Assembly (NCBI GenBank): GCA_016744855.1
Contig: JADGDO010000003.1
Location: 186,001-250,000 of the forward strand
DNA length: 64,000 nt
Direction: 5' to 3'
From: Candidatus Fermentibacteraceae bacterium
GTDB lineage: Bacteria > Fermentibacterota > Fermentibacteria > Fermentibacterales > JCC-6
Every line of letters begins with the position of its first letter. The first letter of the stretch is position 1. The notes below the pieces were generated by a model. The model was given only the letters and a program-made list of their open reading frames with translations. It was not told the origin of the DNA and did no database searches. Of this stretch, positions 10,635 through 35,783 are shown one piece after another. The translations under genes and the position numbers were made by a program.

Positions 10635-11966
10635 TTAGTATCTGTCCAGGTATCTATCTATCTCCCACGGGTGAATCACCTGTATGTACTGCTCCCATTC
10701 TCTTCTCTTGTTTAAAAGAAAGTGATTGAATACATGCTCTCCGAGAGCATCGGCAATCACTTCATCTTTTTCCATACAGTCGAGTGCAGCACACAGGCTG
10801 TCAGGAAGAGCACTGATCTTCAATCTCTTCTTCTCTCTCCCGCTCATGGAGAAAATGTTTCTGTTCACCGGTTCACCGCAATCCATCTTCTTCTCTATTC
10901 CCTCAAGTCCGGCTGCCAGCATCGCTGCAAGTGCCAGGTAAGGATTGCAGGAAGGGTCCGGTACTCGAATTTCGCATCTTGTTCCGTTTCCTCTGGCAGC
11001 AGGTACCCTAAGGAGAGGAGACCGATTTTTCAGAGACCAGGCTACATTAACAGGTGCCTCGAATCCGGGAACAAGTCGTTTGTAGGAGTTCACAAGCGGA
11101 TTTGTTACAGCAACAAAGCCTTTTGCATGCTTGAGAACCCCGGCCATGAATCCTCTGGCAATGGATGAAAGACCTTCAGGACTCTTCTCGTCGTAAAACA
11201 CATTTTCACCGTCGGAGTTAAACATGGAAAAATGGGTATGCATTCCAGAACCGGCAGCATCAACAATTGGTTTAGGCATGAAAGTAGCGTGAAGACCGTG
11301 CATCAATGCGACTTTCTTCACAACAAATTTGAAGGTAACAATATTATCTGCAGCTTCAACGGCCTCGACATACTTAAAATCAATCTCATGCTGACCGGGA
11401 GCAACCTCGTGATGTGCTGCTTCCACTTCGTAACCCATAGCCTCGAGAGCAAGAACGATATCCCTGCGCCCTTCTTCTCCTTTGTCGACCGGGGAGAGAT
11501 CAAAATACGCACCCTTGTCATGTGTTTCAGTAACGGGGTTACCCTTGTCATCTAGGTGAAACAAGAAGAATTCAGCCTCTGGGCCAACCATAACCCTGTA
11601 ACCGAGATCGGCTGCACGGGCCACCTGCTTTTTAAGAACAGCCCGGGGACAACCCGGGAAGAGAGAACCGTCAGGCAAAGCGATGTCACAGATGAGTCGT
11701 CCGATTCTACCGTAATCACTTTCCCAGGGAAAAACTGCAAATGTATCAAGATCGGGAGTAAGTAGCATATCCGATTCTTCTATCCTGGTAAAACCTTCGA
11801 TTGAAGATCCGTCGAACATAACCTTGCCCTGGAGAGCCTTATCAAACTGGCTTTCGGGTACCTCTACATTTTTCACTATCCCGTCAATGTCAGTAAACTG
11901 AAGACGAAGAAAGTGAACATTGGATTCTCTGCAAAGATCAAGTATCTCAGAAATTCGCTTTTCCAT
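10635..11966 (-). CDS. glnA: Glutamine synthetase type I (alpha, unadenylylated form)
   Basis: 443 residues. Makes glutamine from glutamate, ammonium and ATP. Motifs: FDGSSIEGF, PEAEFFLF, the ATP/Glu site HHEVAPGQHEIDF, the conserved MPKPIVDAAGSGMH and RVPAARGNGTRCEIRVPDPS. The length and the C-terminal LGEHVFNHF...HPWEIDRYLDRY match the short GSI-alpha group, and no NLYDLP adenylylation segment is present. Feedback or repressor control is therefore more likely than adenylylation. The ATG has AAGGGG about 6 nt upstream. Promoter and operator candidates lie directly upstream (11998-12038). Confidence 0.95.
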   Translation of the reverse strand: MEKRISEILDLCRESNVHFLRLQFTDIDGIVKNVEVPESQFDKALQGKVMFDGSSIEGFTRIEESDMLLTPDLDTFAVFPWESDYGRIGRLICDIALPDGSLFPGCPRAVLKKQVARAADLGYRVMVGPEAEFFLFHLDDKGNPVTETHDKGAYFDLSPVDKGEEGRRDIVLALEAMGYEVEAAHHEVAPGQHEIDFKYVEAVEAADNIVTFKFVVKKVALMHGLHATFMPKPIVDAAGSGMHTHFSMFNSDGENVFYDEKSPEGLSSIARGFMAGVLKHAKGFVAVTNPLVNSYKRLVPGFEAPVNVAWSLKNRSPLLRVPAARGNGTRCEIRVPDPSCNPYLALAAMLAAGLEGIEKKMDCGEPVNRNIFSMSGREKKRLKISALPDSLCAALDCMEKDEVIADALGEHVFNHFLLNKRREWEQYIQVIHPWEIDRYLDRY

Positions 11967-13895: not shown

Positions 13896-14223
13896 GGCGA
13901 AAGATCCCCCCTTCCTTTCTTATCAACGCTCAAATGATACTCAAGGGGTATGGTCAAGTAAAGCCTTGTACTGCTATGGTTTGAGAAATGTATATATATA
14001 TGGCGTTTTGTGGTTTCAGGTGATTTATCTAACAGCGATCAACTTAATAAAATACGTCCAAACAGCTGATAATCTTAGCAGGTAAAGCCCCGATGTAACT
14101 CCTCTTGACTGACCGAGCATTGGAGAATATTGTGTAGTGCGCTGTTCGCCATGCACATACTGGATTGGGGGGCAGTCTTTTGTTTCGAACGATATTCAAA
14201 TTCTTACTATCGGAGAACAAAAC
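13896..14223. other. Intergenic region between divergent genes
   Basis: 328 bp without a supported gene. It holds an AT-rich tract with a TATATATATA run at 13990-14000, the nfnA promoter at 14105-14133 and the nfnA ribosome-binding site (GGAG, 9 nt before ATG 14224). An in-frame upward extension of nfnA to an ATG at 14137 exists but has no ribosome-binding site. Confidence 0.6.
14105..14133 (+). promoter_or_regulatory. nfnAB promoter
   Basis: TTGACT (14105-14110), 17-bp spacer, TATTGT (14128-14133). The predicted transcript starts near 14140, giving a leader of about 84 nt. The hexamers equal those of the glnA promoter. Confidence 0.5.
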
Positions 14224-15093
14224 ATGCACAAAATACTGCACAAGGAAATTCTGGGGCCCGATGTTACTCTCTACAGATTCTATGCTCCCGATATAGCTCA
14301 GTACCGCCAACCCGGGCAGTTTGTTCTAATTCGCATTTCTGATGAGGGAGAGAGAATACCCATTACCCTGGCAGATGTTGACCGGTCTGAGGGAAGCATT
14401 ACTCTCATAATTCAATCCGTCGGCAAAACTACCCTTAAACTCGCTCAAATGAATGTTGGAGATTCCATCCCGGACATTGCGGGTCCTTTGGGGGAACCAA
14501 CACACATAGAGCTTCTAGGTCATGTTCTCTGCGTAGGGGGCGGCATAGGAACTGCACCCCTCTACCCGGTTGCGAAAGCTATGAAAGATTTAGGGAATAG
14601 AGTAACCTCGATTATCGGGGCAAGATCTGAAAACCTTCTGATACTAGAGGATAGAATGAAAGCGGTCAGCGACAAAATGGTAATCACTACCGATGACGGC
14701 TCCAAGGGTAAGAAGGGTCTCGTCACAGATGCAATAAGCGAGCTCGTTGAAAGCGGAGAAAAGTTCGATCAATGTGTCTGCATGGGTCCTCCTATCATGA
14801 TGAAATTTGTCTGCCTCCTAACAAAGAAACTAGGCATTCCAACAATCGTAAGTCTGAATCCCATAATGGTTGATGGAACCGGTATGTGTGGGGGATGCAG
14901 GGTTACTGTGGGTGGGAAAACAAAATTTGCATGTGTTGATGGTCCTGAATTTGACGGTCATCAGGTAGATTTTGATGAGATGATGGCTCGCCTGAACACC
15001 TACAAAAACCATGAAAGAAAAGCACTGGAACACTATTCGAAAGAAACCGGTTGTAGACTTGAAGCCTCTTTGAACAAAGGGGAGTCAAAATGA
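14224..15093 (+). CDS. nfnA: NfnA-type ferredoxin:NADP reductase subunit alpha (FAD, 2Fe-2S)
   Basis: 289 residues, starting at ATG 14224. An FAD-binding barrel (about 1-95, with PGQFVLIR) and an NAD(P)-binding half (GGGIGTAPLYP at about 103) end in the 2Fe-2S ligand set MCGGCRVTVGG...KFAC near residue 225. This is the small subunit of the NfnAB/SudBA enzymes, which couple NADH and ferredoxin to NADP by electron bifurcation; a sulfide:NADP reductase role is an alternative for the family. The stop overlaps the next ATG by 4 nt, as expected for subunits of one complex. Confidence 0.9.
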   Translation: MHKILHKEILGPDVTLYRFYAPDIAQYRQPGQFVLIRISDEGERIPITLADVDRSEGSITLIIQSVGKTTLKLAQMNVGDSIPDIAGPLGEPTHIELLGHVLCVGGGIGTAPLYPVAKAMKDLGNRVTSIIGARSENLLILEDRMKAVSDKMVITTDDGSKGKKGLVTDAISELVESGEKFDQCVCMGPPIMMKFVCLLTKKLGIPTIVSLNPIMVDGTGMCGGCRVTVGGKTKFACVDGPEFDGHQVDFDEMMARLNTYKNHERKALEHYSKETGCRLEASLNKGESK

Positions 15094-16553
15094 AACCTGC
15101 AGAAAGACTGAAAATTCCACCAACAGTAATGCCTGAACAGGATCCAAAACTCAGAATTCAGAATGTTAACGAGGTACCCCTCGGATACACTCCCGAAATG
15201 GCAATGGTCGAGGCAAAACGCTGTCTGCAGTGTAAAACACCCTTCTGCATTGAAGGCTGTCCGGTGGGGATTGATATCCCCGGTTTCATATGTGCAATTG
15301 AAAAGGGAGACTTTAAAGAGGGAATCCATGTTCTGAAGCAGAGGAATCTTCTTCCTGCAGTTTGTGGGAGGGTGTGTCCACAGGAAGAACAATGCCAGGC
15401 AATGTGTGTTATTGGTAAGGCAAAAAAGGACCCGGCTAAAGCAGTAATGATTGGCAAACTTGAGATGTTCCTTGCCGACTGGGAGAGGAAACAGGGAGAA
15501 TATGCTACCCCTCCCGAGGTCAGAAAAACAGGAAAAAAAGTGGCAATAGTAGGCGGTGGCCCTGCTGGTCTGACAGTGGCGGGAGACCTGATAAAATACG
15601 GTCACGATGTTACTGTGTATGAGGCATTTCACAAAGCGGGTGGGGTTCTTGTTTATGGAATTCCGGAATTCAGACTGCCCAAGGCAATAGTGCAGACTGA
15701 AGTTGAATATCTTCAGAAACTCGGAGTTAAGTTCCGCTACAACTTTATTGTGGGCAGAACTGCTCCTGTAGCGAAAGTTGTAGAAGAAAACGATGCCGTT
15801 TTTATAGGCACAGGGGCAGGTCTTCCAAGATTCATGCGAGTTGAAGGAGAGAACCTGCTAGGAGTACTCTCCGCCAATGAATATCTCACTAGGGCAAATC
15901 TGATGAAGGCGTATTCATTCCCCCAGACAGACACCCCAATTGTAAAAGGAAGAACCGTTATTACTGTTGGCGGTGGCAACGTGGCAATGGATTGCGCAAG
16001 AACAGCTCTTCGAATGGGGGCTGAACGCTCTCTGATTGTATACAGAAGGGCTGAAGAACAGATGCCGGCAAGATTGGAAGAGCTTCATCACGCAAAAGAA
16101 GAGGGTGTTGAATTCCATCTTTTGAACAATCCGGTTCGGCTGGTTGGCGATGATACCGGCTGGTTGAAGGGTGCTGAGCTTATAAAGATGGAACTGGGGA
16201 AACCGGATGCTTCGGGAAGAAGAAGACCAATGCCGATCGAAGGTTCGGAATACATTCTGGAAGCAGATATTCTGATAGTAGCCATTGGAAACAGCCCCAA
16301 TCCGCTCATACCGGCATCCTACCCTGAACTTGATGTTACAAACTGGGGTGGTATTATTGTTAATGAGGTAACAGGCCAGACTTCGGTTCCGGGAGTTTTT
16401 GCCGGTGGTGATATTGTTCTAGGAGCCGCAACGGTAATCCTTGCGATGGGTCACGGTAGGCGAGCAGCCAGAGCAATGAACCTCTACCTTTCATCAGGCC
16501 GCTGGACAGATCTTGAAGACGGTCTCGAATTATGCAGAGCAGAAGTTCGGTAG
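15090..16553 (+). CDS. nfnB: NfnB-type NADPH-binding subunit (GltD-like, two 4Fe-4S)
   Basis: 487 residues. The N-terminal domain carries two 4Fe-4S clusters (CLQCKTPFCIEGCPVG near 45; CGRVCPQEEQCQAMC near 95). Two dinucleotide folds follow: IVGGGPAGL (about 155) for FAD and VGGGNVAMD (about 290) for NADP. The closing FAD motif is PGVFAGGDIV (about 432). It matches NfnB and the glutamate synthase small subunit. Because nfnA is directly upstream and no large glutamate synthase subunit is nearby, the bifurcating ferredoxin:NADP oxidoreductase is preferred. Shine-Dalgarno GGGGAG precedes the ATG. Confidence 0.92.
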   Translation: MKPAERLKIPPTVMPEQDPKLRIQNVNEVPLGYTPEMAMVEAKRCLQCKTPFCIEGCPVGIDIPGFICAIEKGDFKEGIHVLKQRNLLPAVCGRVCPQEEQCQAMCVIGKAKKDPAKAVMIGKLEMFLADWERKQGEYATPPEVRKTGKKVAIVGGGPAGLTVAGDLIKYGHDVTVYEAFHKAGGVLVYGIPEFRLPKAIVQTEVEYLQKLGVKFRYNFIVGRTAPVAKVVEENDAVFIGTGAGLPRFMRVEGENLLGVLSANEYLTRANLMKAYSFPQTDTPIVKGRTVITVGGGNVAMDCARTALRMGAERSLIVYRRAEEQMPARLEELHHAKEEGVEFHLLNNPVRLVGDDTGWLKGAELIKMELGKPDASGRRRPMPIEGSEYILEADILIVAIGNSPNPLIPASYPELDVTNWGGIIVNEVTGQTSVPGVFAGGDIVLGAATVILAMGHGRRAARAMNLYLSSGRWTDLEDGLELCRAEVR

Positions 16554-16638
16554 TAATTAATAAGTTCTTGACTTCGGGGAGAATGCGTTTTAGCGTTCAC
16601 TCACCAGTACAGTTTATTCACAACAGAGGAGGAAACCA

Positions 16639-17625
16639 TTGAAGGGTCGAGTACTCATAATAGATGACGAAGCCGAGATCCGAAGAAATCTAACCTTCGG
16701 TCTCACCCAGGAAGACTATTCCGTGGTATCATGCCCAGACGGGATTTCTGCAGTACACGAGCTGAACCAGTCCCGTAATAAGGGAATTGCATACGACTAC
16801 CTTATCACAGATATTTTCATGCCTGATATCGATGGGCTGAAAATCCTCAAGGTTATCAAGAATCAGTATCCTGATCTTCCAGTACTTGTGATTACCGGAT
16901 TTGGTGATGAAAGACTAATGATGACTGCTCTCGCTGAGCACAATACGGGTTTCCTCAACAAACCGTTTGAGATTCCTGAACTGGTTGAAGCTCTCGATGA
17001 ATTGACACCGGGAAAAACATCAACAGATTCAGAAAAAGAAGAAACAGATGATGGAATGCGCGAATCAATCAGTGCATACCTCACTATTAAGATCACAGAC
17101 TCAGAGAACAGCATGGAAATTTTCGACAAGCTTTATTCTATGCCCGGTATCCAGTCATGTGATGCTGTCCGTGGAGATTTCGATGTAATTCTTCTTGCCC
17201 AAGCAGAATCGGATGCCGGTATTCAGAAGGTCTTCAGCGATGTGAAAGCAATTGAGGGAATCAAACTTCTTTCAATGTCTCAGGTTGAAAGACCAAAACT
17301 CGACAGAGATGTTGACCAGTTTATTGATACCTACCAGAAAGCAGTTAAGCAAGAAGCAAGAACCGGTGCAAGAAGGCAGCCGGGTACAATGAGTTACATC
17401 ATTGTTGATATAGATCCCGACTCCATCCAGCAAATATTTACTACCGTATTCTTTATCGATGAAGTGGTAGTCTGCGATGTCATTGAGGATGGTACAAAAT
17501 TGGTTGGCATGATAACCGGAAGTGGTGCTGTTGGTAAAACTCCCAGAGTTATCGAAAAGCTCAGCCAAGTAGACGGGGTTCTGCGTGTAAGAGAGGCTAA
17601 GGTAATCAAACTGATAGACGACTGA
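16639..17625 (+). CDS. Receiver protein with two Lrp-type (RAM) ligand domains
   Basis: 328 residues from a TTG start with AGAGGAGG 6 nt upstream. Residues 1-122 are a receiver: acidic pair DD 9-10, acceptor Asp 58, Thr 86, Lys 108. After an acidic linker come two beta-alpha-beta-beta-alpha-beta units (about 146-226 and 250-327) that read like the RAM amino-acid-binding domain of Lrp/AsnC: SMPGIQSCDAVRGDFDVIL in the first, FIDEVVVCDVIEDGTKLVGM in the second. No helix-turn-helix is visible, so direct DNA binding is unlikely. It lies between nfnB and the NuoE-like gene, on the same strand, and may link phosphorylation and small-molecule sensing to these enzymes. Confidence 0.75.
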   Translation: MKGRVLIIDDEAEIRRNLTFGLTQEDYSVVSCPDGISAVHELNQSRNKGIAYDYLITDIFMPDIDGLKILKVIKNQYPDLPVLVITGFGDERLMMTALAEHNTGFLNKPFEIPELVEALDELTPGKTSTDSEKEETDDGMRESISAYLTIKITDSENSMEIFDKLYSMPGIQSCDAVRGDFDVILLAQAESDAGIQKVFSDVKAIEGIKLLSMSQVERPKLDRDVDQFIDTYQKAVKQEARTGARRQPGTMSYIIVDIDPDSIQQIFTTVFFIDEVVVCDVIEDGTKLVGMITGSGAVGKTPRVIEKLSQVDGVLRVREAKVIKLIDD

Positions 17626-17664
17626 TAAACTGACAGACAACAAAACCAATTCTGATCTGTACTG

Positions 17665-17691
17665 ACCCCGATGGGGAGTCTCCACCGGGGT
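17665..17691 (+). terminator. Hairpin between receiver gene and NuoE-like gene
   Basis: ACCCCGATGG pairs with CCACCGGGGT (one A-C mismatch) around a 7-nt loop, 39 bp after the receiver stop. No run of Us follows, so it could be a weak terminator, an mRNA-processing site or a stabiliser that sets subunit ratios. Confidence 0.35.
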
Positions 17692-17716
17692 TCCGGTTCT
17701 GATTCTGAAGGGAGTG

Positions 17717-18223
17717 ATGAAAACGGCAGCCAAGAAGGAAAATTTCAATTACAGGCTCTGGAAATATGATGGAGCACCGGGGGAACTGATTCCCCTTTTG
17801 CAGTCTGCTCAAGAGCACTTTGGATACGTTCCCAGACGAGCTATCACTTACATCTCCGGAGTCACAAATATTCCCGAATCCGACATCTACGGTGTAATAA
17901 CTTTCTACAGTCAATTCAGACTTCAACCAATGGGCAAGTATGTCGTAAGAGCCTGTGCTGGCACCGCTTGTCATGTGTCCGGTGCAAAAGCAATCATTAA
18001 CACTGTTGAGGATGAACTGGGAGTTGAAGTGGGAGACACTTCAGAAGACGGTCTCTTCACCTTCCTGACTGTTGCCTGTATCGGATGCTGTTCACTGGCT
18101 CCTGTGATAATGGTTAATGATGAAACCCATGGCAGGCTTACACCTGCATCCCTCCGTAAAATATTGAAAGAGTACAGAAGAAAAGGTAAGAAAAATGCTG
18201 AAGGTGCTGTGGGTGCCCCCTGA
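17717..18223 (+). CDS. NuoE/HydC-like thioredoxin-fold 2Fe-2S subunit
   Basis: 168 residues. An N-terminal helical bundle is followed by a thioredoxin-like 2Fe-2S domain with ligands CAGTAC and, about 40 residues on, CIGCC. This is the NuoE / HydC / HndA-type subunit that hands electrons to or from the NuoF-like flavoprotein. The ATG at 17717 is used; a GTG one codon earlier is possible. It leads a three-gene set (17717-23717) read as an Stn-like or hydrogenase-like electron-bifurcating complex. No H-cluster protein lies in the set. Confidence 0.9.
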   Translation: MKTAAKKENFNYRLWKYDGAPGELIPLLQSAQEHFGYVPRRAITYISGVTNIPESDIYGVITFYSQFRLQPMGKYVVRACAGTACHVSGAKAIINTVEDELGVEVGDTSEDGLFTFLTVACIGCCSLAPVIMVNDETHGRLTPASLRKILKEYRRKGKKNAEGAVGAP

Positions 18224-18259
18224 TTCCGTCACAAAATTGAAATCTCTAGGAGCAAATAG

Positions 18260-20044
18260 ATGAAGAAAATAATTGTCGGAATGGGAACCTGCGGTCTCTC
18301 CGCCGGCGCCCAGCCAGTGTATGACAAGCTTGAGGAATTGGCAGAAAAACACCCTGAAGCCTGTGTTCTTGATATCACCGGATGTATTGGAATGTGTTTC
18401 CGTGAACCACTTGTTGAAATACAGGATGATACCGGAAGAACCATTTATGGAGATGTATCGGAAACATCCGCTGAGGAAATATTCAATGAGCACATCCTGG
18501 GTGGCATCAAAGTAGATAACGATAATGTGATCTACGGAGTGAACAAAGATGGATCTACTTATGGATCAGAAGTATCTTTTCTCGATTTGCAGGAAAGAAT
18601 AGTTCTCAGAAATTGCGGAATCATCAACCCAGAATCAATAGATGACTATGAAGAAATTGGCGGAGGATACAAGGGGTTGAAAAAAGCTCTCACAGCAATG
18701 ACACCTGACGAAATCATTCAAACCATGAAAAGCTCCGGGCTTCGCGGACGTGGAGGAGCAGGCTTCCCAACAGGTCTGAAATGGTCATTCGCTGCTGCAA
18801 ACAAAGGTGACACAAAGTATGTTGTCTGCAATGCAGATGAGGGTGATCCCGGTGCATTCATGGATCGTTCTGTTCTTGAAGGAGATCCTCATGCGGTTCT
18901 TGAAGGCATGATCATCTGCGGAAAAGCTATCGGTGCAAGCTTCGGTTACATCTACTGCAGAGCAGAGTACCCTCTTGCAATTGAACGGCTTGAGAAAGCC
19001 ATTACTGCGGCAAAAGCAAAAGGCTATGTCGGAGAAAACATCTTCAATTCAGGATTTACATTCAACTTGAAAGTAAAACAGGGAGCAGGAGCATTCGTCT
19101 GTGGTGAGGAAACAGCTCTTTTTGCTTCTATCGAGGGTGAACGAGGAATGCCCCGTATTCGGCCCCCGTTCCCGGCAGAGAAAGGTCTCTGGCAAAAACC
19201 GACTAACAACAACAATGTCGAGACTTTTGCAAATGTTCCATGGATTATTGCAAACGGAGCTGAAGCTTACTCCTCAATCGGCACAGAAAAAAGCCCCGGA
19301 ACCAAGGTGTTTGCCCTAGCGGGTAAGGTTGCCAAGGGCGGTCTGGCTGAGGTTCCTATGGGAACGACTATTGAGCAACTTGTTTTCAATATCGGTGGCG
19401 GTATCAAAGACAACGGAGAATTTAAAGCAGTACAGATGGGTGGACCATCAGGTGGTTGCATTCCTGCCGATCAGAAGACAACACCGGTAGACTTCGAGTC
19501 TATTCCTGCCACAGGTGCTATTATGGGCTCCGGTGGAATGGTTGTAATGGATCAGGGAACATGCATGGTTGGAATTGCCCGGTTTTTCCTTGATTTTACT
19601 CAGAGTGAATCCTGTGGCAAGTGTACTTTTTGCAGAATTGGAACACTTCGAATGCTAGAAATCCTTGACCGGATTACAAGAGGAGAAGGTATTCCATCAG
19701 ACATAGAAAAGCTTCAAAAATTATCCATCCAGATAAAGGAAGCGAGTCTCTGCGGACTTGGTCAAACTGCACCCAACCCTGTTCAGACCACCATCAGATA
19801 CTATCTGAATGAATACAAAGCTCACATCGAGGATAAAAAATGCCCTGCCGGGGAATGCGAAGCTCTTGTTGACTTCGTAATTATCCCAGAGAAGTGTGTA
19901 GGATGCACACTTTGTGCCAGAAACTGCCCGGTGGATGCTATAGAAGGTAAAGTCAAGGAAATTCACATCATTGACCAGGAAAAATGCGTGAAGTGCGGCA
20001 AGTGCATAACCAGCTGCAACTTCAGTGCAGTAGTGAAACGGTAG
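18260..20044 (+). CDS. NuoF/HydB-like NADH-binding flavoprotein
   Basis: 594 residues. An N-terminal thioredoxin-like domain with Cys near 35, 42 and 46 precedes the NuoF core: FMN loop RGRGGAGFPTG (about 162), NADH loop GAGAFVCGEETAL (about 276), and the 4Fe-4S site SCGKCTFCRIGT (about 452). Two C-terminal ferredoxin motifs follow (CVGCTLCARNCP; CVKCGKCITSC). This is the subunit that holds the FMN used for bifurcation in HydABC and Stn enzymes. The next gene begins 7 nt later. Confidence 0.93.
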   Translation: MKKIIVGMGTCGLSAGAQPVYDKLEELAEKHPEACVLDITGCIGMCFREPLVEIQDDTGRTIYGDVSETSAEEIFNEHILGGIKVDNDNVIYGVNKDGSTYGSEVSFLDLQERIVLRNCGIINPESIDDYEEIGGGYKGLKKALTAMTPDEIIQTMKSSGLRGRGGAGFPTGLKWSFAAANKGDTKYVVCNADEGDPGAFMDRSVLEGDPHAVLEGMIICGKAIGASFGYIYCRAEYPLAIERLEKAITAAKAKGYVGENIFNSGFTFNLKVKQGAGAFVCGEETALFASIEGERGMPRIRPPFPAEKGLWQKPTNNNNVETFANVPWIIANGAEAYSSIGTEKSPGTKVFALAGKVAKGGLAEVPMGTTIEQLVFNIGGGIKDNGEFKAVQMGGPSGGCIPADQKTTPVDFESIPATGAIMGSGGMVVMDQGTCMVGIARFFLDFTQSESCGKCTFCRIGTLRMLEILDRITRGEGIPSDIEKLQKLSIQIKEASLCGLGQTAPNPVQTTIRYYLNEYKAHIEDKKCPAGECEALVDFVIIPEKCVGCTLCARNCPVDAIEGKVKEIHIIDQEKCVKCGKCITSCNFSAVVKR

Positions 20045-20051
20045 GGGCATC

Positions 20052-23000
20052 ATGGACATGATTAAACTGAAGATCAACGGACAGGAAATCGAATCTGCTC
20101 CGGGAAAAACCATTCTGGAAGTGGTGCGGGAAAATAACCTTGATGACATTCCTACACTCTGCCACTCTCCAGAACTAACACCTTACGGCTCATGTTTTGT
20201 TTGTGTCGTTGAGGTTAAAGGCAGGGGAAATTTAGTACCCTCATGTGCTACCCGTATTACTCCGGGGATGGAAGTAGTTACGCGCAACGAAAGAATCACC
20301 GACTCAAGAAAAACGGCTTTCGAGCTTCTTCTCTCAAACCACTATGCCGACTGCAGTAGCCCATGCATGGACGGATGTCCGGCAAATGTTGATGCACAGG
20401 GATACATTGCCTTCTCAGCAATGGGTGAACTTCAGAAAGCCATAGACCTTATTCGTGAGAAAAATCCTCTTCCAGCAGTCTGCGCAAGAGTATGCGTAAG
20501 AAAATGCGAAGATGTATGCCGCAGAATGGATGTTGACACCCCTGTGGCGATTAACAACATCAAGCGATACCTGTCTGATGCTGAAAATGCCTATGCAACC
20601 GAGCCAGAGTGCCTCCCTCCTACGGGAAAGACAGTTGGTATTGTAGGTGCAGGTCCAGCAGGTCTCACCGCTGCATGGTTCCTCGGGAAACAGGGAATTA
20701 AGCCAGTAATCTACGAGGCAATGGAACGCACCGGTGGAATGCTCCGCTACGGAATCCCAGAGTACAGACTTCCAGACGATGTAATGGACAAGGAAGTTGA
20801 GTACATCGAAAAAGTCGGGGCTGAGATTCACTGTGGAGTAAGAGTCGGAACTGATATCACACTGAATGAGTTAAAGAAGAAACATGACGCCCTGTTCCTT
20901 GCCGCCGGTGCCTGGACCGGTAAAGCAATGCGTGTCGAAGGTGAATTCGACACCGAAGGTGTTGTTACAGGAGCAGATTTCCTGCCGGAAAAAGTAGACA
21001 ACCCCCTGCCCCTGACCGGAACCATTGTTGTTGTGGGTGGCGGTAACACCGCCATGGATGCTGCAAGAACAGCATGGCGCTTGAATGCAGACAAGGTGAT
21101 TGTTCTTTACAGAAGAACCAAAGCTCAGATGCCTGCAGACAAAATGGAAATAGAAGACTGCATTGAAGAGGGCATCGAGATAATGGAACTTGCAGCACCT
21201 GTAGGTATCATTCGAGAGAATGGCAAGCTACAGGCCCTGAAATGCCAGAGAATGAAGCTCGGTGAGCCTGATGCTTCAGGAAGACGCAGACCAGTACCTC
21301 AGGAAGGTTCAGAATTCGAGCTTCCCTGTGACCTGATTATCTCAGCAATCGGCCAGAATACTATTCTGGAAGGTCTGACGGAGATAGAAACCGGTGAAGT
21401 CGAGCTCACCAGGTGGAATACTTATGTAATCAACACCAGAACAATGGAAACAAATGTAGAGGGTGTTTTTGCAGGAGGAGATGCTGCAGATGATGGTCCA
21501 ACGGTTGCTATTGATGCAATAAGGGATGGACAGAGAGCTGCTGATTCGATTCAGGCATGGCTTTCAAGCAAAAAAATCACCCCTGAACCATTTGCTGTTC
21601 ACAAGGAATTCTGGTCTAAGCCGGGTAAAAATGAACTCGGAGATATCAAAGAATCCACCAGACACGAACTCCAGACGATAGAAGTAGATGAACGCCGAAA
21701 CAGCTTTGCAGAAGTCGCAACGGGATTTGATACCGAAGATAACGAGCATGAAACAGAGAGATGCCTTTCATGCGGTTGCGTACGCTTCGACGACTGCGAT
21801 CTCAGATTGTATGGTGAAGAGTACGGTGTGGACATGGATGAGTTCAAGGGTCACGTGCGTAAACACAAGGTTGATGAAAGACATCCCTACATCGTTTACG
21901 ATCCAAACAAATGTGTTCTCTGCTCTAGGTGTGTAAGAACATGCGCCAGAGTTCTTCCCATACCTGCTCTTGGTCTTGTGGGCCGTGGTTTCAAAACCGA
22001 GATGCGCCCTGCAATGAATGACCCACTGGTAGAGACAAGCTGTATAAGCTGTGGTAACTGTGTTGACTCATGCCCCACAGGCGCTCTCACAATGAAATAC
22101 CCCTTTAATGGTAGAGCCTGCCTGGAAACTGAGGACATCAGCACTCACTGCGGTTTCTGTTCCATCGGCTGTGAAATAGTAGTAAGAAGCTTTGGTGATC
22201 AGCGCTACTTCATAAAATCAAGCGGAAAACCAGGGGACTACCTTTGCCGTTATGGTAGATTCGGTAATGAACTGTTCATCAAACAGGGCAGAATGAAAAA
22301 CTTTGTTATGAGAGATGGCGGTTCATACAAGGCTGTTCAGCAAACTCTTGCAAACGAAGCAATCGTAGCAAAGATGAAGAAAGCAGCAGAGCAGTATGGT
22401 GCAGATAAGGTTGCAGTATTCATTTCCCCTGAACTTACCAATGAAGAGTTCTATCTTGCCTCTTCCATAGCGAGAGAAGGTATTGGCACCAATAATATCG
22501 GTTCACTAGCAATCCTCAGTGGAGGTGGCCGCTCAGGTGTACTGGATAGATCTTTCGGCTTTACAGCATCCACTTCCGATAAGGAATGCCTTACAACAGC
22601 CGACCTGATCATCTGCAACAACACAGCTCTCGAAGGTGATCATCTCATCCTCGCAGTTGATGTTATTCAGAAGGTTAAAGACGGAGCAAAATTGATAGTT
22701 GCCAACTCTACCCTTGCCAACTCAGATCAGCACCTTGCCTCTCTGGCAGTTGATCCGATGCGTGGAAGGGCATCTTACTTCTGGAATGCAGTAATGCAGG
22801 AACTGATGGACAAGGGCGTTATTAGCCCAGATAACCTGCCAGGAAAAGATAAATTCCTGGAAGGCAGAAATACTTCCAGCGAAGTATCAGCTGCTAAATC
22901 GGGAGTAGAGTTAGAAGACATCCAGCAGGCCGCCCAGCTTATTATGGAAGCCGGAAACGTTGTCTTTATTCACAGTCCGGACAGACCGCAGGATGCAGCC

Positions 23001-23717
23001 CCAGAGGATATCGAGATATTCGCAGATCTTGCGTTAATGATGAAAGATTCTGGAAAACACTCTGACATTCTTCTTCCAAGACTTATTGCAAACAGTGCAG
23101 GTCTTGAGGTAATGGGTGCTGATCCTGCCTTCACAGCCGGGCGTGTACCTGTAGGAGAAAACTGTCTTCCAGGAGCAAAGACCAGCCGTGAACTCAGAGC
23201 TTTTCTTGAAGAAGGAGAACTTAGAGCCGCATTCATTATTGGAGAAAACCCACTCGACTTCAGTCGAACGGGATCATGGTTCCAGAACTGCGAGTTCATC
23301 GCAGCAATGGACTGGACAGACACCGAAACAACAATGGCTGCTGATGTTACGCTGCCCGGTTCAACCTATCTTGAAACCCCTGGAACCAGATGTAATTACG
23401 AAGGCAACCTGATCTGCTTCAACGGTGCTGTTACTCCTGCGTCGGGTAAAACCGGAAGAGAAGTTCTTGAGTGCTTAGCAAAAGCCTTCGGTCTTACTCT
23501 TAATGATTCTCCAGATGAACTGGTCCGAGAGAAACTTGGAGATATGGTTCGTTTCTACTGGAACACAGGAGAAGAACGAAACTGGGATGGCACGGGTGCT
23601 CTTGTGCCGATAACTCTCGGTACAAAGGCTTCTTCAATACAACCCCCAATGACGCACAGTCAGCAGTATCGCAAAGATATCATGGAGGTTGGAACGGAAA
23701 GGTTCCGGGTACTCTAA
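20052..23717 (+). CDS. NuoG–GltD–ferredoxin–formate-dehydrogenase-like fusion (StnC-like)
   Basis: 1,221 residues. Order: NuoG-type 2Fe-2S domain (Cys 37, 48, 51, 65); GltD/NfnB-like part with Cys-rich start (about 100-165), FAD motif VGAGPAGL (about 197), NADP motif VGGGNTAMD (about 327) and closing FAD motif (about 471). Then ferredoxin motifs CVLCSRC (about 621) and CISCGNC (about 664), a 4Fe-4S site CGFCSIGC (about 700) and a formate-dehydrogenase/NuoG-like domain to the end. The place of the Mo-binding Cys or Sec (about 814-826, NNIGSLAILSGGG) has Ser/Gly, so that domain should be non-catalytic. With the NuoE and NuoF partners this fits an Stn-type NADH/ferredoxin/NADP transhydrogenase; assignment by architecture, not proven. 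Confidence 0.88.
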   Translation: MDMIKLKINGQEIESAPGKTILEVVRENNLDDIPTLCHSPELTPYGSCFVCVVEVKGRGNLVPSCATRITPGMEVVTRNERITDSRKTAFELLLSNHYADCSSPCMDGCPANVDAQGYIAFSAMGELQKAIDLIREKNPLPAVCARVCVRKCEDVCRRMDVDTPVAINNIKRYLSDAENAYATEPECLPPTGKTVGIVGAGPAGLTAAWFLGKQGIKPVIYEAMERTGGMLRYGIPEYRLPDDVMDKEVEYIEKVGAEIHCGVRVGTDITLNELKKKHDALFLAAGAWTGKAMRVEGEFDTEGVVTGADFLPEKVDNPLPLTGTIVVVGGGNTAMDAARTAWRLNADKVIVLYRRTKAQMPADKMEIEDCIEEGIEIMELAAPVGIIRENGKLQALKCQRMKLGEPDASGRRRPVPQEGSEFELPCDLIISAIGQNTILEGLTEIETGEVELTRWNTYVINTRTMETNVEGVFAGGDAADDGPTVAIDAIRDGQRAADSIQAWLSSKKITPEPFAVHKEFWSKPGKNELGDIKESTRHELQTIEVDERRNSFAEVATGFDTEDNEHETERCLSCGCVRFDDCDLRLYGEEYGVDMDEFKGHVRKHKVDERHPYIVYDPNKCVLCSRCVRTCARVLPIPALGLVGRGFKTEMRPAMNDPLVETSCISCGNCVDSCPTGALTMKYPFNGRACLETEDISTHCGFCSIGCEIVVRSFGDQRYFIKSSGKPGDYLCRYGRFGNELFIKQGRMKNFVMRDGGSYKAVQQTLANEAIVAKMKKAAEQYGADKVAVFISPELTNEEFYLASSIAREGIGTNNIGSLAILSGGGRSGVLDRSFGFTASTSDKECLTTADLIICNNTALEGDHLILAVDVIQKVKDGAKLIVANSTLANSDQHLASLAVDPMRGRASYFWNAVMQELMDKGVISPDNLPGKDKFLEGRNTSSEVSAAKSGVELEDIQQAAQLIMEAGNVVFIHSPDRPQDAAPEDIEIFADLALMMKDSGKHSDILLPRLIANSAGLEVMGADPAFTAGRVPVGENCLPGAKTSRELRAFLEEGELRAAFIIGENPLDFSRTGSWFQNCEFIAAMDWTDTETTMAADVTLPGSTYLETPGTRCNYEGNLICFNGAVTPASGKTGREVLECLAKAFGLTLNDSPDELVREKLGDMVRFYWNTGEERNWDGTGALVPITLGTKASSIQPPMTHSQQYRKDIMEVGTERFRVL

Positions 23718-24681: not shown

Positions 24682-27675
24682 ATGAAAGACAGGAAACTTG
24701 ATAGCATCATTGAAAAAAGAGGAGAAGAATCTATACCCTTTCATTCCCTGATGTCACGCAGAATTACAAACATTCTGCTGGTCTCAAGCCTTTATGATTC
24801 TTTCACCCTGCAGGAGGACGGGAACTTTACAGAAGTACTCTTCTCGGAGTATCTGGATCTTAATCTAAGATACGCTCCGAGGATTGTAAGGGTTTCCACA
24901 GGGAAGGAAGCATTGCTTCTTCTGGAAAAAGAAAGCTTTGATCTGGTTATTTCCATGTTGAGTATAGGCACAATGCAGTGTGATGAGCTTGGGAAAGCAA
25001 TAAATGAGCGCTTTCCTGATCTCTTTTTTGTGATTCTCGCATACAGTCAGCGTGATCTTAAAATACTCTCAGACAATCGCACAGAAGATTTCAGGCATCA
25101 ATCCTTTGTTTGGCAGGGTGATGTACGCCTGTTCATGGCAATAATCAAGTCGGTAGAGGATCGATTGAATGCAGAGAAAGATACACGTATTGCCGGAGTA
25201 AAATGCATAATTCTTGTTGAAGACTCTCTTAGATTCTACTCATCTTACCTCCCAATGCTATACTCAGAGCTTATGAAACAAACTCAGCTACTAATGACTG
25301 AGGGTGTAAACCAGATGCAGAAGTTAATGCGGATGAGGGCCAGACCAAAAATTCTTCATGCGAAGAATTATGAGGATGCAGTTTCTCTCTATAAATCTTT
25401 CAAAAACAATATTCTGGGAGTTATTCTGGATGTAGGGTTTAAAAGAAACGGTGAGGAGCACCCTGAGGCTGGCTTTGAATTCGCCAGGGAGATAAGAGAA
25501 CAAGACACTGAATGCGTAATTCTGTTCCAATCGTCTGAAGAGTCCGACAGAGCGGAAGCACTAAATCTCGGATGTGCATTCATAAACAAGAATTCAGCAA
25601 CTCTTCTTGCGGATGTTCGAGGGTTTATGGAAGATTATCTGGGTTTTGGTGATTTCATTTTCAGAAGCCCGAGTGGTGTTGAAATAGCAAGAGCAAGTGA
25701 TTTAAGAGAGTTAAAGAGAGAACTGAGGATGGTTTCTGATGAAAGCATCTATTTCCATGCTAAGAAAAACCACTTCTCCACCTGGCTCATGGCCAGAACA
25801 GAATCTCATCTGGCTCAAACTCTGCGGCTACAGGATGCAGATGATTTTGAGAGCGTCACAAGCCTTAGAGAATATCTGATTTCTTCACTGAAACTCTGGA
25901 TGGACAGATCTAAAGCTGGGCAGATCGAAGACTTCTCCGCCGAAACATTTGATTACGATTCAGAATTTGTAAAAATTGGTTCAGGCTCTCTGGGAGGCAA
26001 AGGAAGAGGATTGGCCTTGTTTCATTCCCTCCTGAATACCTACAACATTGGGGACCACTTTCCGAATGTTGATATTCTGGTTCCACACACAGTAGTACTT
26101 GCTACCGGTGTTTTTGACAGCTTCATGGATACTGGAGAGCTGAGAGATATTATTTTCAAGCCGGAAACGAGAGACTCGCAAGAAGAAACTGACTTGGATA
26201 AGTTTGTAGTAAAAACTTTTCTCAAAACGCCTTTACCGGAGAAGGCAATAGAAATGCTTCTATCCTTCCTCCACAAAGTTGATTATCCGATTGCAGTCAG
26301 GTCATCCAGCCTCCTTGAAGACAGTCCGGCATATCCTTTTGCTGGGATATACAGCACCTATATGCTTCCAAACAACAACAAAGATATCAACGTTCGCCTC
26401 GAGCAACTTCTGGAGGCTGTTAAGCTGGTCTATGCATCAGTCTATTTCAAGGAGTCTAAAGCCTACATCGAAGCTACTCCGAACAGACTGGAAGAGGAAA
26501 AGATGGCAGTAGTTATTCAGCAGATTGTTGGTGCAAGGCATGGATCAAACGTCTATCCAAATTTTGCAGGAGTTGCAAAATCATTTAACTACTATCCACT
26601 TGAAGGCATGAAAGAGGAAGACGGTGTTGTTTCAGTAGCTCTCGGACTGGGCGGTACAGTTGTGGATGGTGGCAAATGCGTACGGTTTTCACCGGAGACT
26701 CCGAGAAAGTTGTATCAATTCTCATCCACAGAGCAGTTCCTGAAGAATTCCCAACGGAAGTTCCTTGCTATTGATATGGGAGTAGAAAATGGCCTCAGCT
26801 CTAATGAAGCCGGAGCAGATCTACATCTTGTTTCACTTGACCTGGAGAAAGCTCAGGAGGACGGAACATTGCCTGCTGTCGGATCTGTCTATTCGCCAGA
26901 AAACGATACGATTATTGATGGAACATTCAGACCCGGAGTAAAACTTGTTACGATGGCAGGGGTCTTGAAGGGAGATTTCTTCCCCCTTGCACCTATCTTA
27001 AAACACTTGTTGAAGATAGGAAAAATAGCTTTCTCATCCGATGTGGAAATTGAATTTGCTACAATCCTTGGAAGTAAAGTGAAAAAAGAGAGAAGCAAGT
27101 TTGGCTTTCTCCAGATAAGACCTATGGTGTGCGGTACAAAAGCTCATTCAGAATTGGATGACATTGATGAAACCAATGCTATCTGCATATCTCACAATGT
27201 TCTTGGCTTTGGGTACATGAAAGAGATCAGTGACATTATCTATGTTCCGGCAAAGGACTTTAATCGAAGCGACACGAACAAAGTCGCCATGCAAATAGAA
27301 AAAGTAAACAGTCAGTTGAAACAAGAAAACAGAAACTCACTTCTAATTGGACCCGGAAGATGGGGCAGTTCAGATCCCTGGCTTGGAATACCAGTCAAAT
27401 GGAATCAAATCTCGTCAGTTAAATGCTTCATTGAAATACCCTTCCCGGACATGGATGTGAATCAGTCCCAGGGAACCCACTTCTTTCAAAACATCACCTC
27501 TCTCGGCCTTGGATACTTCACCCAGACCAGAGCCCGGACTGACTTCCTGGACACCAGTTTTCTGGAAAACCATAAGAACAAAACAGATTATGGCTTAGTC
27601 AAACACATCAGATTGGAAAAGCCCCTGGAGATACTCATCAATTCCAGGAAGAAAAAAGGAGTTATCAGACCCTAA
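24682..27675 (+). CDS. Receiver-domain protein fused to PEP-synthase-like ATP-grasp domain (second full copy)
   Basis: 997 residues, same architecture as the protein at 3706. Degenerate receiver at about 30-160; second receiver at about 176-320 (acidic residues in ILVEDS, acceptor Asp near 251 in VILDV, Lys near 304). PPDK_N domain: GGKGRGL at 438-444, AVRSSSLLED near 538, LQIRP near 811. C-terminal module: GPGRWGSSD at 890 and GTHFF with His 933. No swivel phosphohistidine domain and no PEP barrel. The acidic pair is ED rather than DD, so phosphorylation may differ from the paralog. It sits downstream of the Stn-like set on the same strand but is separated by the satD segment. Confidence 0.8.
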   Translation: MKDRKLDSIIEKRGEESIPFHSLMSRRITNILLVSSLYDSFTLQEDGNFTEVLFSEYLDLNLRYAPRIVRVSTGKEALLLLEKESFDLVISMLSIGTMQCDELGKAINERFPDLFFVILAYSQRDLKILSDNRTEDFRHQSFVWQGDVRLFMAIIKSVEDRLNAEKDTRIAGVKCIILVEDSLRFYSSYLPMLYSELMKQTQLLMTEGVNQMQKLMRMRARPKILHAKNYEDAVSLYKSFKNNILGVILDVGFKRNGEEHPEAGFEFAREIREQDTECVILFQSSEESDRAEALNLGCAFINKNSATLLADVRGFMEDYLGFGDFIFRSPSGVEIARASDLRELKRELRMVSDESIYFHAKKNHFSTWLMARTESHLAQTLRLQDADDFESVTSLREYLISSLKLWMDRSKAGQIEDFSAETFDYDSEFVKIGSGSLGGKGRGLALFHSLLNTYNIGDHFPNVDILVPHTVVLATGVFDSFMDTGELRDIIFKPETRDSQEETDLDKFVVKTFLKTPLPEKAIEMLLSFLHKVDYPIAVRSSSLLEDSPAYPFAGIYSTYMLPNNNKDINVRLEQLLEAVKLVYASVYFKESKAYIEATPNRLEEEKMAVVIQQIVGARHGSNVYPNFAGVAKSFNYYPLEGMKEEDGVVSVALGLGGTVVDGGKCVRFSPETPRKLYQFSSTEQFLKNSQRKFLAIDMGVENGLSSNEAGADLHLVSLDLEKAQEDGTLPAVGSVYSPENDTIIDGTFRPGVKLVTMAGVLKGDFFPLAPILKHLLKIGKIAFSSDVEIEFATILGSKVKKERSKFGFLQIRPMVCGTKAHSELDDIDETNAICISHNVLGFGYMKEISDIIYVPAKDFNRSDTNKVAMQIEKVNSQLKQENRNSLLIGPGRWGSSDPWLGIPVKWNQISSVKCFIEIPFPDMDVNQSQGTHFFQNITSLGLGYFTQTRARTDFLDTSFLENHKNKTDYGLVKHIRLEKPLEILINSRKKKGVIRP

Positions 27676-33800: not shown

Positions 33801-35783
33801 ATGATCAGTCTTGAAGATCTCTATTCACTTATAGAAAGCACCTTTGATCTTCTCCTTGTCGTAGATAACAATGAGAAAATTCACTATGTCTCCCCTCTGA
33901 TGGAAAACTCATGCTCAGCTACTGATTCAGGCGTTGCAGGCGAGCACCTGGAAAATATTCTTGATCATTCGTCCCTTGATTCATTCAGACGTGCAATGAA
34001 GAAAGTCAGCTCTGGCTCCCGTGGAGTTCTGGCGGTATTCTGTACCGGCAAAGTGGATTGTGTTCCGATTCCCATGAAAGTCGGATACACTGGAAGTGTC
34101 ACGGGTGGATTCTACCTGTTTTTCGGCAAACAAGCGGATGCTTTAAGGAAAATAGATAACTGGGAAAAGGAAGAACGGGCAAAAGAACTTTCCTGTCTTT
34201 ATGCAGTTGCAGAGTGGATAGAGGTTTCAAAAACAATTCAGGACTTCTTTACTAAACTTCCATCTTTCCTCTCTGGTGGAATGCGTTATCCAGACGAGGC
34301 AACCGTCTACTCTATCTATCAAAACGTAGAATATGGCCAGAAACCGGAAGGCAGTGAGTATATCAGTGTCAGGCTTTTCGTCAGCGGAGATCTTAAAGGT
34401 GAAATCAGAGTCGGATACATTAACAACGAAAGAGAACTGCTTCCCGAAGAATACAAATTGTTAAATCAGATTGGGAAAATGCTCAGTCTTGCTCTGGAGC
34501 GTAAGGAACTCTCCGAGAGCATAGTACTCAAGGAAGAAGAGGAAGCAGAATTTGCAGCAAGACTGAAAGATTTAGAAAATGAAATCGGTGTTCGCGAATC
34601 TGATCTTGCCTCTCAGAAGCAAAAACTAAAAACTGTTGATTCATATCTGAACAGGGTTAATGAAACCATTGAAGAGAGCACAAGAAGATTCGATACAATG
34701 TTCAAAGCCATTCCAGACAAGGTTCTGATGATAGACTTGAACAGGAATATTGTAATGAGCAACAGAGATGACATCAGTTCAGGTGAAAAATGTTATCGTG
34801 CCAGCTTCAACAGAGAAAGCCCCTGCATAGATTGTAGGCTCTCTAAAATTATCAAAAACAAAACACCTATTACTGTAACTCTAAGAGATGGTGATGAATA
34901 CCTCGAAGTTCACGCTCTTCCCGTCTTCAATAAGAATGAGGAAGTTGAAGGCATTATGGAGTTCTACAGGAACGTCACACTTGAGAAAACCTATGAGCAG
35001 CAGATTCAGCAGGCAGATAAACTGGCCTCACTCGGGCAGCTTGTGAGCGGCATTGGCCATGAGATCAACAATCCCAATCAGTTCATAAGAGGCAATATTA
35101 AAATTGTGAAACAGGCTCTCGATGACATGCTGCCGATAGTCGATGACTATCAGAAGGACCATCCTGACCTGAAGATTGCCCGTTTGAAATACAATTTCTT
35201 CAGAGAGCACATAATGACCCTGGTAGACGACATGGCCCACGGGTCAGAAAGAATTAAGGGTATCGTTGAGGGGCTTAGAGGTTTTGCCCGTAAGGATGAA
35301 GGGCTTCTTGTAGACAATGTTGATATCAATACCCTTATCAGTTCAGTACAAAGGCTTGTTCAGAATGAAGTGCACAAGCATGGGGAAATAGAACTTAACC
35401 TCTCTGAAAATGTGAAAATATTCCCCGGTAACTCTCAGAAAATTGAGCAGGTTCTTGTTAATCTCATTGTAAATGCAGCGCAAGCAATTCCGGATGATCG
35501 TAAGGGGCTGATAACAGTTAGCACATCCATGGACGAGAATACGGTTGTAATAGAAATTGAAGACAATGGGAAAGGAATGGACGAAAAAACCCAGAGACAG
35601 ATATTCGATCCTTTCTTTACGACAAAAAGAGCAAAAGGGGGCACTGGGCTCGGATTGGCAATCTCCTACAGAATACTTGAGGAGCACGGGGGCAACATTT
35701 CGGTGAGCAGCAAGCCGGGATCAGGCACGAAGTTCACTTTGAGAATCCCGGTAGTTGGAAATGGAAAGGAGAGCAAGTCATGA
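33801..35783 (+). CDS. PAS/GAF sensor histidine kinase (cytosolic)
   Basis: 660 residues, no membrane segment. Order: PAS (about 1-115), GAF-like (about 130-235), coiled coil (about 235-300), second PAS (about 305-410), HisKA with phosphorylatable His 420 (GIGHEINNP), HATPase with N box (about 552), DNGKGMD (about 588) and GGTGLGLAIS (about 613). The second PAS holds CYRASFNRESPCIDC, a Cys arrangement found in PAS domains that bind a metal or sense redox. The stop overlaps the ATG of the regulator by 4 nt, so the two form a two-component pair. Confidence 0.92.
   Translation: MISLEDLYSLIESTFDLLLVVDNNEKIHYVSPLMENSCSATDSGVAGEHLENILDHSSLDSFRRAMKKVSSGSRGVLAVFCTGKVDCVPIPMKVGYTGSVTGGFYLFFGKQADALRKIDNWEKEERAKELSCLYAVAEWIEVSKTIQDFFTKLPSFLSGGMRYPDEATVYSIYQNVEYGQKPEGSEYISVRLFVSGDLKGEIRVGYINNERELLPEEYKLLNQIGKMLSLALERKELSESIVLKEEEEAEFAARLKDLENEIGVRESDLASQKQKLKTVDSYLNRVNETIEESTRRFDTMFKAIPDKVLMIDLNRNIVMSNRDDISSGEKCYRASFNRESPCIDCRLSKIIKNKTPITVTLRDGDEYLEVHALPVFNKNEEVEGIMEFYRNVTLEKTYEQQIQQADKLASLGQLVSGIGHEINNPNQFIRGNIKIVKQALDDMLPIVDDYQKDHPDLKIARLKYNFFREHIMTLVDDMAHGSERIKGIVEGLRGFARKDEGLLVDNVDINTLISSVQRLVQNEVHKHGEIELNLSENVKIFPGNSQKIEQVLVNLIVNAAQAIPDDRKGLITVSTSMDENTVVIEIEDNGKGMDEKTQRQIFDPFFTTKRAKGGTGLGLAISYRILEEHGGNISVSSKPGSGTKFTLRIPVVGNGKESKS

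Follow-up and report, generated by a model that had tools for sequence, protein, structure and literature searches.

The window, i.e., the whole 64,000-nucleotide stretch of DNA from a Candidatus Fermentibacteraceae bacterium analysed here, holds at 16639-17625 on the + strand a 328 aa ORF starting with TTG, preceded by an AGGAGG ribosome-binding site (16627-16632, + strand). Among the orthologue starts compared, the same start codon and a GGAGG-like site recur. The first-pass annotation had read this ORF as a receiver followed by two RAM-like domains, and had placed it between genes for redox enzymes. The ORF is real, its architecture is as claimed, and Pfam and NCBIfam assignments bear out the redox-enzyme genes on both sides.

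Upstream, on the + strand, lie an NfnA-like FAD/NAD-binding subunit (14137-15093; the analysis took a later start, near 14224) and an NfnB-like GltA subunit (15090-16553); a glutamine synthetase gene (10635-11966, − strand) stands further upstream of this Nfn pair. Downstream, also on the + strand, come in order a NuoE-like gene (17714-18223), a NuoF-like gene (18260-20044) and a GltD/NuoG/FdhF-like fusion gene (20052-23717), all assigned by Pfam and NCBIfam. This is the order of stnA, stnB and stnC in Sporomusa ovata, as described in passages of PMC7483475, and the window StnC matches the S. ovata StnC chain 8oh5_C (entry 8oh5 being named in parts of PMC10482914) with an E-value of 2.9e-210. 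Judged by these matches, 17714-23717 is stnABC, the electron-bifurcating NADH/ferredoxin:NADP+ transhydrogenase. The spacer between the regulator gene and stnA (17626-17713) shows a GC-rich hairpin, and a structured RNA was considered here; folding of this gap gave a median z of -1.32 across loci, with z below -2 in 23 of 72 and -0.93 in the window, against a background shuffled by a simple dinucleotide walk. Rfam gave no match in the window. Beyond the operon, 24682-27675 encodes receiver-like stretches, a DUF5752 and a PPDK_N/PEP-synthase-type ATP-binding domain in one protein, homologues of which lie near the same operon in 21 of the loci searched, mostly from the window's phylum.

Domains of the regulator

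The receiver domain occupies residues 1-121 (16639-17001, + strand), with a Pfam Response_reg match at residues 5-119 (E 6e-25). It carries the complete set of an acidic pair, a phospho-acceptor Asp, a Thr/Ser and a Lys, namely D9, D10, D58, T86 and K108, and all five are invariant in the 52 aligned orthologues, an alignment made of full-length orthologues picked from 80 loci kept by similarity to the regulator plus one further genome. The receiver with Asp 58 and Lys 108 proposed at first reading is, thus, upheld. So is the proposed lack of a DNA-binding part: the search of the 52 members for a helix-turn-helix (HTH) gave nothing convincing, a single member showing a noise-level match (E 0.035), and the protein does not have the N-terminal helix-turn-helix of Lrp/AsnC transcription regulators. 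All 52 members are acidic (pI 4.35-5.19, median 4.63).

The two C-terminal domains were more difficult to assign. RAM domain 1 (residues 144-220, 17068-17298, + strand) bears a GDFD motif at 179-182, passes the Pfam cut-off for AsnC_trans_reg (residues 157-209, E 5e-7, 29.9 bits for a cut-off of 25) and resembles RAM structures with Z 10-12; AsnC_trans_reg is matched at E<=1 by all 52 members. The third domain of the protein, RAM-like domain 2 (residues 250-325, 17386-17613, + strand), has no RAM profile match here, so that of the two RAM domains claimed initially, the first stands on its profile but the second only becomes RAM-like through its relatives and its fold. Indeed, when scanned alone, it had no Pfam match in the window protein, as holds for four of the five members tested, the fifth giving a weak NapD match only. 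Alignments of domains 2 and 3 of the protein compared with hhalign match each other with an E-value of 1.8e-5 and a probability of 78%; four of six divergent relatives have two AsnC_trans_reg stretches, and in one of these AsnC_trans_reg_3 is above cut-off at residues 280-332, across the third domain. AlphaFold2 predicts the receiver followed by two beta-alpha-beta-beta-alpha-beta units, at a mean pLDDT of 77 (whole protein) or 83 (C-terminal part). On profile comparison, divergent relatives and predicted fold, the third domain is best described as a diverged RAM domain.

The best VIA match of the C-terminal model is NirDL (Z 14.1, 157 residues, 3.1 Å), followed by many Lrp/FFRP RAM domains at Z 10-12; full-length Foldseek returned mostly receivers and said little about the C-terminal part. 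Since the C-terminal model resembles both the tandem Lrp-like NirDL and RAM domains, these two units probably pair with each other intramolecularly. The ligand pocket of Lrp RAM domains sits between dimers and takes up mostly amino acids, and DM1, a RAM protein that stands alone, responds to 2-oxoglutarate as well, as stated in passages of PMC2995911. A redox switch formed by C174 and C279, at equivalent positions of the two RAM domains, was considered and rejected, C174 being absent in two of the 52 members and C279 in four. A cysteine at the equivalent place occurs in Lrp proteins.

One has to consider here that the pair might be an assembly or maturation factor for Stn, a NapD-like RAM pair holding StnC or StnA during iron-sulphur loading, with phosphorylation acting as the gate. 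Several points speak for it: NapD matches 47 of the 52 members at E<=1 (best 1.2e-6), the NapD structure 2jsx aligns with the C-terminal model at Z 9.9, a receiver-less form of the protein persists beside stnA, and the FdhF-like domain of StnC is needed for a functional enzyme, as reported in parts of PMC10482914. However, the RAM match of domain 1 is clearly above NapD in four of the five members scanned and about equal in the other, and S. ovata Stn is active when produced from stnABC in E. coli (same source, in part), which implies that a maturation factor is not generally needed; we regard this role as unlikely. A NapD identity for the third domain was also tried and set aside: the NapD match of the window protein is below the curated cut-off (16 bits for 28), with the results of the separate scans as given above. 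Domain 1, taken apart, gave a weak NapD match in all five members scanned. Both C-terminal domains are, therefore, read as RAM-type rather than NapD.

Association of the regulator with stnABC

We compiled 91 loci, comprising the 80 kept by similarity, 2 from family genomes, 6 from outside the phylum and 3 receiver-less ones. Wherever stnA is visible, it is immediately preceded by the regulator gene in the same orientation (90 of 90 loci), with a median gap of 95 bases; in the 91st (L098), the contig ends inside the regulator gene. The upstream side is different: 29 loci have a GltA-like gene as the immediate upstream neighbour and 47 with 1.5 kb or more of preceding sequence do not, the other 15 being too short. 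The arrangement between nfnB and the NuoE-like gene that the first-pass annotation wished to see in relatives is, thus, kept on the stnA side but not on the nfnB side. Because a GltA-like neighbour is missing from those 47 loci, the regulator is tied to stnABC and not to Nfn, and we discarded a dependence on, or fusion to, the upstream Nfn genes. No other conserved upstream neighbour of the regulator was found besides the Nfn pair.

The titles of the 80 similarity-kept loci name Fermentibacterota, Krumholzibacteriota, Eisenbacteria, Latescibacterota, Aminicenantes, Elusimicrobia, groups of Acidobacteria, Spirochaetales, Planctomycetes and others, these loci being MAGs with taxon labels given by their depositors. 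As this list was kept by similarity to the regulator, it is uninformative on Stn loci lacking it. We, thus, rely for these on 385 genomes, 343 of them outside the phylum, that were searched with a RAM-pair profile and with StnC (threshold E<=1e-200). Among the 343, 6 have the RAM pair and 17 have StnC, and all 6 are among the 17, an overlap with a chance of about 6e-9 under independence, although these genomes are not independent of one another. StnC without regulator occurs in 11 genomes outside the phylum, one of which (G312) has a contig that breaks off within stnB. Inside the phylum, Stn comes without the regulator in G016, and contig ends truncate the locus in G004 and G014; four genomes (G006, G008, G030 and G033) have the regulator but no StnC match at the threshold, their contigs ending in the operon. 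In a quick tree of stnB, the regulator-bearing rows are clustered without forming one clade, with 4 changes. The survey of close kin was small (n=7 genomes for the order of G343 and n=1 for the class of G144). In three regulator-less Stn-like loci (L138, L139 and L140), several other genes separate stnB from the NuoE-like gene; by eye, they look like HATPase and PHP genes. A glutamate dehydrogenase gene is often close by in the window's phylum, and such genes also stand beside stn loci with or without the regulator (L128, L138, L043 and L044).

Sequence conservation was compared in the 34 loci whose StnB is less than 75% identical to that of the window. There, median identities to the window copy are 79% for the receiver, 75% for RAM2, 72.5% for StnA, 72% for StnB, 61% for StnC and 54.5% for RAM1; the receiver is better conserved than the catalytic subunits of Stn, and it exceeds StnB in 34 of 34 loci. 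From this, the receiver probably faces conserved partners. The regulator could also be a mere co-inherited operon neighbour with its real target elsewhere in metabolism; the operons may have been transferred whole from phylum to phylum, and common descent alone can keep neighbours. Yet the upstream neighbours are not kept while the regulator is in all 90 loci, and hitch-hiking would sit poorly with a receiver conserved above the catalytic subunits, so that we hold this explanation to be highly improbable. The association of the regulator with stn is well shown.

Histidine kinase, NtrC-like regulator and natural variants

In many loci, a PAS-HisKA-HATPase kinase gene comes after stnC; in most phyla other than the window's, this soluble kinase and an NtrC-like regulator both follow stnC. 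Of the 58 loci offering 700 bases or more of room, 32 have a kinase homologue in the same orientation no further than 1.5 kb downstream of stnC; the other 43 of the 101 loci do not allow a judgement. The 26 loci where it is absent next to stnC comprise 14 from the window's phylum, L104, L123, L133, the receiver-less L134 and 8 Stn loci without regulator. In other words, the PAS kinase adjoins stnC in none of the 8 judgeable Stn loci lacking the regulator; among the regulator-bearing loci with enough room, 18 have no kinase next to stnC, and the window's phylum accounts for 14 of these.

In the window, the orthologue of this kinase by sequence comparison is a PAS/HisKA/HATPase histidine kinase identified with Pfam (33801-35783, + strand), soluble by hydropathy (highest 19-residue mean 1.33). 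The two are 57% identical over their length (E 4.2e-237), the next best match in its own genome reaching E 9.3e-27 over 175 residues. It lies 10 kb from stn, next to another response regulator that is possibly its only target. A kinase orthologue at E<=1e-60 is present in 34 of the 40 genomes chosen, in two of which (G403 and G414) it does not adjoin stnC. His420 is present in 31 of 31 aligned sequences, and Cys132, Cys331, Cys342 and Cys345 in 30 of 31. Residues 331-345 of the PAS region thus form a CX10CX2C cluster in all but one of the 31 sequences, and this may be a site for a metal or for redox chemistry; the conserved cysteines may serve in redox sensing. In one genome (G007, contig C99, locus L161), the kinase orthologue is interrupted by an in-frame TAG, and no NtrC-like gene follows it.

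The window's NtrC-like response regulator (35780-37138, + strand; REC-AAA-weak Fis HTH by Pfam) lacks the GAFTGA loop. An NtrC-like gene follows the kinase in 31 of the 32 loci with at least 300 bases of room. Across these regulators (loci L158-L187 and the window), a main clade without GAFTGA can be told from a deep clade having it, with sigma-54-like sites at its operons: GAFTGA is kept in 3 of 3 deep-clade proteins (L131, L132 and L137) and absent in 27 of 27 judgeable main-clade proteins, the window's among them and L173 and L179 being dropped as broken frames. This absence could be a loss of sigma-54 control. Sites resembling sigma-54 promoters, scored against the same dinucleotide-walk background, were found upstream in 1 of 54 loci where the regulator gene comes first at a score of at least 10, and in 4 of 54 at a score of at least 9; the idea of a sigma-54 promoter before the regulator as a general rule was, thus, dropped.

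These data bear on an indirect control of transcription, in which REC-RAM-RAM would bind the kinase or the NtrC-like regulator and tune stn expression to a metabolite or redox signal, leaving the enzyme untouched. Operon regulators are often encoded with their targets, the NtrC-like gene follows the kinase almost invariably (the 31 of 32 above), and the deep clade combines GAFTGA with sigma-54-like sites ahead of the regulator scoring 10, 9 and 8 of 12 in L136, L131 and L132. Against this stand the missing loop in the whole main clade, the rarity of sigma-54-like sites and the fact that the RAM pair stays beside stnA where the kinase was not detected; we consider such indirect control doubtful.

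That last point leads to the natural variants. No kinase orthologue was found at E<=1e-60 in six of the 40 genomes (G016, G013, G017, G226, G337 and G343). G016 has no regulator; G013 and G017 have one that is 38% and 51% identical to the window's, their StnB being 76-78% identical, with Asp58 present; G226 has an intact receiver. G337 has no receiver, and neither do three kin genomes (G385, G386 and G387); the receiver-less RAM pair lies upstream of stnA in all four genomes of this family that hold it, the fifth genome (G388) showing no match to the RAM pair. In G343 (locus L135), D58 is changed to Ala, and the RAM pair is beside stnA. With a second kinase query, the genomes without orthologue and the three receiver-less kin gave matches of at most 156 bits, covering the catalytic core, for a paralogue background of 144. 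Among the 34 kinase-bearing genomes, D58 is intact in 30 of the 30 checked (G004, G023, G037 and G039 being outside the check). Loss of the receiver or of its Asp, thus, co-occurs with no detected kinase in two lineages, and the RAM pair stays with stn, from which it follows that the receiver may face the kinase and the RAM pair may face Stn. With so few losses, and with the four receiver-less genomes related to one another, this pattern is suggestive only.

Proposed mechanism and comparison with known systems

Our main reading, to which we give a probability of roughly 50%, is that REC-RAM-RAM would serve as the output component of a two-component system devoted to Stn, acting on the enzyme and not on DNA. 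The soluble PAS kinase (33801-35783) would phosphorylate Asp58 of the receiver, and probably the neighbouring NtrC-like regulator as well; the tandem RAM domains would fold into an intramolecular pseudo-dimer binding a small metabolite; phosphate at Asp58 would change the RAM pair, and this, in turn, the activity or assembly of Stn, the protein behaving as a regulatory or assembly partner of StnABC itself. The reading draws on the fixed place beside stnA, the presence of StnC in all six sampled genomes outside the phylum that have the RAM pair, the high conservation of the receiver, the link with the kinase, the variants lacking the receiver or D58, the acidic pI, the missing HTH and the NirDL-like fold. 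Weighing against it are the 11 StnC-bearing genomes with no regulator, the 18 loci whose kinase is not adjacent, the distant position of the window's kinase next to another response regulator, and G226, G013 and G017, which keep Asp58 with no kinase orthologue detected. The contact with the enzymes or with a kinase guessed by the first-pass annotation fits well with the conserved partners suggested by our comparisons, StnABC and the PAS kinase. With glutamate dehydrogenase often nearby in the window's phylum, nitrogen-linked ligands are a fair first guess for the RAM pair. Action on Stn, ligand binding and phosphotransfer are what we infer from these sequences, and so is the sign of the regulation. 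S. ovata Stn was purified and studied as StnABC alone, as described in PMC7483475 and PMC10482914, so the regulator is not needed for catalysis there.

A more detailed version of this mechanism is tentative: the kinase would sense the redox state through its Cys cluster and phosphorylate REC-RAM-RAM as a fourth, regulatory subunit of Stn, phosphate and RAM-bound metabolite jointly setting the electron flow between NADH, ferredoxin and NADPH. Sequence does not discriminate between direct action on Stn, transcription control through the NtrC-like regulator and a part in assembly.

Among known proteins, the Lrp/AsnC (feast/famine) regulators have the same RAM fold, our RAM1 sharing their GxxD motif and matching FFRP/Lrp RAM domains at Z 10-12, but our protein differs from them in that it carries both RAM units on a single chain behind a receiver, has no HTH and keeps a fixed position next to an enzyme operon. 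The stand-alone RAM proteins DM1 and STS042 are likewise without a DNA-binding domain, according to passages of PMC2995911. The NirDL/Ahb sirohaem decarboxylases are the best structural match to our RAM pair (the 157 residues at Z 14.1 reported above); that match, however, has no receiver, identity is about 15%, and the NirDL enzyme acts on sirohaem. Two of the 52 members weakly match (best E 0.0015) PF21699, the TM1266-like putative [FeFe]-hydrogenase regulator, a small-domain protein whose name ties it to a hydrogenase system. It is a single domain without receiver.

On the signalling side, response regulators without DNA-binding output, with CheY-like, enzymatic or ligand-binding outputs, share the full catalytic receiver set, and ours differs by its tandem RAM output, a pairing for which our searches of the open-access literature gave no report. 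As for the enzyme, S. ovata StnABC has the same stnABC genes, whereas ours stand in a cassette with a two-component system; a word search of the two Stn papers (PMC7483475 and PMC10482914) found no response regulator named, and our searches of the open-access literature gave no published description of a Stn-linked REC-RAM-RAM system. The domains, the enzyme and the signalling logic are each known; it is their pairing that we did not find described. Nor did we find the switching of bifurcating transhydrogenases described, for which a signalling cassette conserved across many uncultured phyla offers a handle, with the candidate kinase, two receivers and putative target all named in one 64 kb window. 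Within the family of response regulators, this one would bring a RAM-pair output together with natural variants (no receiver, D58A, no kinase found) that may separate its enzyme-facing half from its kinase-facing half.
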